Source: Elusimicrobia bacterium RIFOXYA12_FULL_57_11
Lineage (GTDB): Bacteria > Elusimicrobiota > Elusimicrobia > Elusimicrobiales > UBA9959
DNA: 32,077 nt
Direction of reading: 5' to 3'
Assembly: GCA_001800275.1 (NCBI GenBank)
Contig: MGVB01000129.1
Coordinates: forward strand, 1 to 32,077
In this document: positions 28,409-29,439 of the stretch, in pieces
Numbering within the stretch: position 1 is the stretch's first letter
Layout of the letters: every line of letters starts with the position of its first letter
Notes under the pieces: generated by a model
Seen by the model: only the letters and a program-made list of their open reading frames with translations
The model's database searches: none
What the model was told of the DNA's origin: nothing
Position numbers and translations under genes: made by a program

Positions 28409-28436
28409 TTGACAAAACGTATAAATCTGCTATACT
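28409..28436 (+). promoter_or_regulatory. Near-consensus promoter TTGACA-N16-TATACT of an orphan sRNA
   Basis: -35 at 28409-28414, -10 at 28431-28436; 14-bp palindrome CTTGACATGTCAAG at 28387-28400 just upstream. Confidence 0.82.
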
Positions 28437-28442
28437 ATCCAT

Positions 28443-28530
28443 GGAGCGGAACACCTTATCGACGGTTGCTTTCCGCTCCTTCCTTTTGAGGGAGACAGCA
28501 GCGCGGGCAAGTGCCCGCGCTTCATTTTTA
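28443..28530 (+). ncRNA. Putative small RNA (~88 nt) with its own promoter and terminator
   Basis: Hairpins 28443-28451/28471-28479 (GGAGCGGAA/TTCCGCTCC) and ~28479-28484/28489-28494, then a terminator at 28501-28520; no ORF of note. Confidence 0.68.
28501..28520 (+). terminator. Intrinsic terminator of the sRNA
   Basis: GCGCGGGC-aagt-GCCCGCGC followed by TTCATTTTTA. Confidence 0.88.
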
Positions 28531-28558
28531 TAACTTGATAATGGAGAGCCGCAGATGA

Positions 28559-28695
28559 CCGGAGGGGGGCCCCGGGGTCTGGCTAGCAAAACCTTCCGAA
28601 GGCCGAGGCTTGCGTAGCGCCGAGGCCTGAGGAGGAGTGAGGCCACGGTGTGGCCGAACGTGTTTTGATAGCCAGACCCCGGGGCCCCCCTCCGG
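28559..28695. repeat. 137-bp inverted-repeat element with a structured core
   Basis: Left arm 28559-28592 and right arm 28662-28695 are reverse complements at 33 of 34 positions; the core has hairpins at 28600-28628 and 28641-28655. Confidence 0.85.
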
Positions 28696-28710
28696 CGACC
28701 TCACCTGGCA

Positions 28711-29439
28711 CTATATTTTTTTGGAGAGCTCGTAGAAGACTATCGCAGCGGCGTTGCCGGCGTTCAGGCTTTCCACGCCGCCTTTCTGCGGAATGGAGAT
28801 CAGCTCATCGCAATGCTCGCGGGTTTTTGCGTGCAGCCCGGAACCCTCGGAACCTATAACGATAACCGCCGGCAGCGTAAAATCCACTTGCGGCAGGGGC
28901 TTGCCGCCCATCTCCATGCCGTAAATCCAGAAACCTTTTTCCTTCAGCTTTATTATAGTCTGGTTAAGATTGACGACCTCTATAACGTTCAGCCGCTCTG
29001 CCGCCCCGGAGGCCGCCTTCTGCGCGGTAGGCGTAAGGCCCGCGGAACGCCGCTCCGGCAGGATGATCGTTGAGACCCCGAGACACGCGGCCGACCTTAT
29101 TATCGCCCCCAGATTCATGGGATCAGTGATCCCGTCCAACCCCGCCCAGATAGTTTTTTTCAGGTCTTTCTCTAGCGCTATGGCGCCATCGACATCCACC
29201 TTGCCCGGCATTTCAGCTTCCACCATCACGCCCTGGTGATTACCGCCCCTGGCGAGTTTCTCCAGAGTACGCTGGTCGCAAAAATCCACGGGCACCCCCT
29301 TATCCCTGGCCAGCGCCACCAGGTCCCGCACGCGCTGCCCGCCTTCCCCGCGCGACAGATACAGACGTAAAACACGGCGGCGGCCGGCAGCAAGCACCTC
29401 TTCGGCGGTATTAAAACCATACAAAAACTCAATAGCCAT
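28711..29439 (-). CDS. rlmB: TrmH/SpoU-family 23S rRNA 2'-O-methyltransferase, RlmB-like
   Basis: LYGFNTAEEVLAAG, LDGITDPMNLGAIIRSAACLGVSTIILP, VIVIGSEGSGLHAKTREHCDELISIPQKGGVESLNAGNAAAIVFYEL. Start trimmed from the ORF track to MAIEFLYGFN. Confidence 0.92.
   Translation of the reverse strand: MAIEFLYGFNTAEEVLAAGRRRVLRLYLSRGEGGQRVRDLVALARDKGVPVDFCDQRTLEKLARGGNHQGVMVEAEMPGKVDVDGAIALEKDLKKTIWAGLDGITDPMNLGAIIRSAACLGVSTIILPERRSAGLTPTAQKAASGAAERLNVIEVVNLNQTIIKLKEKGFWIYGMEMGGKPLPQVDFTLPAVIVIGSEGSGLHAKTREHCDELISIPQKGGVESLNAGNAAAIVFYELSKKI

Follow-up and report, generated by a model that had tools for sequence, protein, structure and literature searches.

The window, the whole 32,077-nucleotide stretch of DNA analyzed here, derives from a genome that RlmB relatives place in the Elusimicrobiota. 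A 137-bp palindromic element at positions 28559-28695 lies in an intergenic interval shared by an mltA-like gene, a small-RNA candidate, and rlmB. The small-RNA candidate (28409-28530, + strand), which lies between the mltA-like gene and rlmB, combines a TTGACA/TATACT promoter, the hairpin GGAGCGGAACACCTTATCGACGGTTGCTTTCCGCTCC, GAGGGAGACAG, and a GC-rich terminator-like hairpin with a T-run. Its sequence hardly varies across 30 genomes of the genus, and it matches no Rfam family.

The initial annotation described the element as 34-nt inverted arms enclosing a two-hairpin core and predicted a three-way junction on a very long stem. The letters are as described: the arms match at 33 of 34 nt, and the 5' arm CCGGAGGGGGGCCCCGGGGTCTGGCTAGCAAAAC and the 3' arm GTTTTGATAGCCAGACCCCGGGGCCCCCCTCCGG have a single noncomplementary place, G28586 opposite A28668. 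The predicted fold is indeed a three-way junction, with a folding energy (RNA parameters, 28540-28715) of -118.3 kcal/mol compared with -73.3 +/- 4.7 kcal/mol for dinucleotide shuffles (z = -9.65; 0/200). The portion common to other copies, hereafter the head, measures about 80 nt, spans 28586-28668 (+), gives the repeat its Y shape, and is exchanged between copies at orthologous sites. It sits on a stem whose locus-specific 5' arm (28559-28585, +) pairs with its complement, the 3' arm (28669-28695, +); the arms of other copies are unrelated to these and self-pairing. Within the head, helix P1 (CAAAAC/GTTTTG, 28587-28592/28662-28667, +) is flanked by the G28586/A28668 mismatch and is followed by hairpins P2 (28593-28635, +; tip CTTGCGTAGCG) and P3 (28637-28659, +; tip CACGGTGTG). 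The RNA fold pairs AGGCC (28600-28604) with GGCCT (28624-28628) and, inside it, GGC (28607-28609) with GCC (28619-28621), adds an extra helix CTTCC/GGAGG (28593-28597/28631-28635), and forms P3 from GGCCAC (28641-28646) and GTGGCC (28650-28655). Symmetric GA/GA internal loops, two in P2 and one in P3, separate these helices and are favorable on the + strand, the opposite strand reading TC/TC there. Neither these loops nor the extra helix figures in the initial annotation. The hairpin is not an assembly artifact, a possibility that the initial annotation had raised against itself, because about 44 copies occur in the same genome and tens more in independently assembled relatives.

Sequence searches recovered many scattered copies with a conserved core in the source genome and its relatives, the pattern by which the initial annotation proposed to recognize a mobile repeat. 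BLAST found about 30 further places in the source genome at E < 1e-3 or so, and a covariance model built from 61 heads (R1) counted 44 copies in its 2.3 Mb. The same model found 21-101 copies in eight other genomes of the genus and 26-57 in four further ones; all genomes compared are draft assemblies, in which the repeats sometimes break contigs. Across 121 genomes of the order, copies are present in all 32 genomes of the source genus and in 14 genomes from five other genera of the same family, with none in the sampled genomes of the order's other family. No description of repeats of this kind in Elusimicrobia or Elusimicrobiota came up in the literature searched.

The fold is preserved by pairing across copies. 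In alignment A1, 85% of the pair cells of the structure hold standard pairs, compared with 72% in shuffles, and sliding the structure along the alignment lowers the value to 41-47%; the rows of A1 were chosen by a motif on two loop sequences, and the invariance of the loop columns, which holds by construction, is excluded as evidence. Double substitutions occur at 33 of the 43 pairs (0/500 shuffles), although the rows are akin to one another and these counts are not independent events. The P2 helices covary in the 61 copies, and the outer P3 pairs change from G-C to C-G. Only one strand is favored: the + strand is more stable than the - strand in 60 of 61 copies with RNA parameters and in 57 of 61 with DNA parameters, and over the 61 copies, G-U outnumbers A-C by 100:45 and G-A outnumbers T-C by 122:57. 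These asymmetries therefore show that one strand, as RNA or single-stranded DNA (ssDNA), is kept foldable, and in the window it is the + strand.

The long stems follow a different rule, being unrelated between copies and paired within them. For 22 of 23 copies in the source genome, no 3' arm pairs better with the 5' arm than that of the same copy, with a mean duplex energy of -46.5 kcal/mol within copies and -23.3 kcal/mol between copies. Source-genome copies whose heads are more than 90% identical have arms that are 53% identical, near the 46% of shuffled arms. Near-identical heads in genomes G008 and G004 come with similar inner arms, and their outer arms are locus specific yet paired. Some near-identical copies in G025 and G029 have arms in common, so arms can travel with heads. 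Derivation of the arms from palindromes already present at the target is not supported, as 800 kb of G029 contained few long headless hairpins of this kind and, for one copy (L362), the allele that lacks the element bears an unrelated short hairpin.

Comparison of orthologous sites shows both presence/absence of the element in relatives and block replacement within it. Of 30 genomes, 13 lack the element at the mltA-sRNA-rlmB site itself, and different subfamilies occupy that site elsewhere. The suggestion that the element insulates mltA and the small RNA from rlmB is accordingly not supported, and the window copy has no evident function for any of the three. Element-free orthologous sites, which the initial annotation had proposed to look for, were found at other places as well. 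Six paired units of G019 (described below) correspond to G006 sites without the unit, some of which may hold other hairpins. Three element-free alleles bear another hairpin instead. The G015 copy L362 is missing from G005, where the short hairpin mentioned above takes its place, and in the sister genomes G002 and G011, two copies are replaced by another palindrome, TGGGGTCAGGTCTTGCATTT...AAATGCAAGACCTGACCCCA (L181/L221 and L196/L229). Where sister genomes share a site, heads and stems have been replaced block-wise with pairing kept, twice in the opposite orientation. At L354/L392, both sites have the same outer arms (GCAGGGCGGACCGG) around heads of different subtypes in opposite orientations, the switch point adjoining the GTTA/GTT internal loop; at L352/L382, the head is flipped too and the arms are changed. 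In the nine orthologous pairs checked, to which this comparison is restricted, mean identity is 92% in the flanks, 77% in the heads, and 66% in the arms, and each copy's own arms pair better (-32.1 kcal/mol) than crossed arms do (-25.9 kcal/mol). Most sites are common to both members of the two closest genome pairs, so part of the turnover reflects exchange at long-occupied sites and not fresh insertion.

The copy in the window stands alone, as a single module; other copies occur in pairs. About 20 loci in G019 carry two divergent heads, - then +, with roughly 40-70 nt of spacer between them. The spacer varies even among near-identical units, and the unit is bounded on the outside by constant sequences, end A (CCGCGAGATGCGAAGTCGGGG) and end B (CGGTAGGCCGCCC). 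The units of G025 and G029 are similar, but one partner is a different Y-hairpin. Near-identical units with the same outer ends recur at many sites in G019, G025, and G029. No target duplication was seen by eye around the paired units, whose empty sites are too diverged for exact breakpoints. Next to the window copy, GAGAGCCGCAGATG (28544-28557, +) is possibly a decayed end A, given a weak by-eye likeness to GAGCCGCGAGATG, which stands at the outer end of such units in G019 and G029. Another family of Y-shaped hairpins (arms GGCGGGGAGGGGCCCC..., hairpins AAACCGTTGCGCGGTTT and GCCTTGGGAATTTAAGGC) occurs beside or apart from the main repeat, at L147, L153, L157, and L158 (G025/G029) and also at L313, L315, and L323. 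Some heads contain extra small hairpins at the P2/P3 junction, at the P3 tip, or as a module of about 120 nt (L168; L195-L198 in G002/G011; L260 in G027; L012/L025 and L015/L029 in the source genome). At L167 and L168-L170, 0.5-1.9 kb of gene-bearing DNA lies between the divergent heads. The stretch enclosed at L167, 1.3 kb long, holds two hypothetical open reading frames (ORFs), neither a recognizable transposase by inspection, and is absent from the sister genome (L186); repeats may thus mark gene gain and loss.

Copies are intergenic. Among 84 loci examined with a simple ORF caller, 69 gaps could be classified: 19 are convergent and 4 divergent, and in the co-directional gaps the head runs along both neighbors in 20 and opposite to them in 26. 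Divergent gaps are avoided, and orientation has no link to the direction of transcription. Replication-strand bias is expected for ssDNA transposition; 12 of 15 heads on contig C51 of G029 lie on the G-rich strand, and contig C40 points the other way.

These properties overlap with those of several known elements. Small nonautonomous intergenic miniature elements (MITEs) of the ERIC, RUP, and Correia types are about 100-150 bp long with strong secondary structure, and the Elusimicrobiota repeat resembles them in size, location, and structure, as well as in having dispersed copies that are present or absent among relatives. Those elements have conserved terminal repeats, and several make target duplications, whereas here the outer stem differs from copy to copy and no duplication was recognized. 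The attC sites of integrons are recombination sites folded on a specific strand, in which structure outweighs stem sequence. In attC, however, the outer boxes are conserved and the center is variable, the reverse of the conserved center and variable outer stem seen here, and no cassette arrays were seen with the repeat. The closest likeness in organization is to REP/BIME (REPIN) elements, which are also high-copy intergenic palindromes found mostly in convergent and co-directional gaps, with frequent inverted pairs whose 20- to 100-bp spacers may vary (PMC3733652, PMC2817692). REPs are reported to avoid divergent gaps (PMC3733652), and only 4 of the 69 classified gaps are divergent here; the pairs of G019 supply the inverted arrangement with short spacers. 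A REP is a single hairpin of 20-40 bp whose palindrome sequence is conserved, with an unpaired GTAG or CGTC tag at one end (PMC3733652), whereas the Elusimicrobiota repeat is about 140 nt long (137 bp in the window, with two hairpins on a long stem), forms a three-way junction, varies in its stem while keeping it paired, and is mostly untagged and without linkage to RAYT genes. The family behaves like REP/BIME elements yet falls outside their published definitions in size, tag, and RAYT association (PMC3733652, PMC2817692).

A shared tip on site-specific, self-pairing stems points away from a gene or gene switch and toward a mobile repeat that is recognized through the shape of its fold. The window copy is thus probably one member of a family of nonautonomous, REP/BIME-like palindromic mobile repeats that act as a folded single strand. 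This retains most of the MITE-like mobile repeat suggested by the initial annotation, namely, the conserved core, the scatter of copies, and sites left empty in relatives, though no target duplication was recognized. Under such a mechanism, an enzyme supplied in trans would recognize the folded strand, either as ssDNA during replication or as a cruciform. Recombination between dispersed copies would homogenize the heads and exchange them between copies, and fold-back (template-switch) repair, selection for pairing, or both may keep the changing stems self-complementary.

The RAYT (Y1 HUH) transposases encoded in the genus could be that enzyme, making this a classical REP/BIME family, but we consider this unlikely. 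Proteins of the RAYT type (PF01797) are present in 27 of the 32 genomes of the genus, and the inverted pairs with variable spacers are organized as in REP dimers (PMC3733652). Up to nine such proteins occur in one genome (L117-L146). GGAG and GTAG letters stand at the feet of one subfamily (GTAG at the 3' foot, in G019, G025, and G029), but by inspection neither GTAG nor CGTC is found at the foot of the window copy or of most copies in its genome. A RAYT gene is reported to have its REPs on either side in every case (PMC2817692), whereas a covariance-model scan of 30 RAYT loci of about 3 kb detected no copy within about 1.5 kb and therefore no RAYT gene flanked by two. Moreover, four genomes that are at least 90% complete and have no PF01797 hit still carry 26-57 copies.

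The structured RNA that the initial annotation offered as its other reading would, in dispersed form, be a functional RNA family of independent small RNAs or mRNA elements spread through the genome. It draws on the strong covariation with G-U pairs and on GA/GA loops confined to one foldable strand, a part of the suggestion that stands. Such a family also seems improbable to us, given that heads show no preferred orientation relative to neighboring genes (20 versus 26), that presence at the same place varies among relatives and the head can flip at one site, and that Rfam gave no match at the gathering threshold, only sub-threshold matches of the microRNA type.

A bolder reading, which we rate as quite improbable, takes the head to be an exchangeable cassette. 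A dedicated enzyme would insert and remove it, in either orientation, at the tips of locus-specific hairpins formed as cruciforms or in ssDNA, a structure-addressed recombination with sequence-unrelated stems as sockets.

Very unlikely, in our view, is an old immobile hairpin repeat at fixed intergenic sites that is homogenized by gene conversion only and retained, for example, as bidirectional terminators or chromosome-organizing sites. The shared sites with exchanged heads in the two closest genome pairs, the other hairpins in three element-free alleles, and the avoidance of divergent gaps would all suit it. Against it are the six empty sites, even if some hold other hairpins, the recurrence of near-identical paired units, outer ends included, across many sites in G019, G025, and G029, and the fact that a T-run is not required. 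An RNA gene at one syntenic site is rejected, since the copies are scattered and 13 of 30 genomes have none at the rlmB site.

Families of palindromic repeats are as a rule recognized by the sequence of the palindrome itself, which is conserved. In this probable mobile repeat, by contrast, conservation lies in the tip, the long stem can vary provided that its arms still pair, and the unit is exchanged block by block at fixed sites, even in flipped orientation. Long perfect hairpins are usually thought to be unstable in bacterial chromosomes, and the many copies in this uncultured bacterial family provide a natural series on how such hairpins arise and persist. If the exchange is enzymatic, it would represent a structure-guided recombination system of a new kind; if it comes from recombination and fold-back repair alone, the repeats would be a clean example of compensatory evolution in sequences other than RNA genes.
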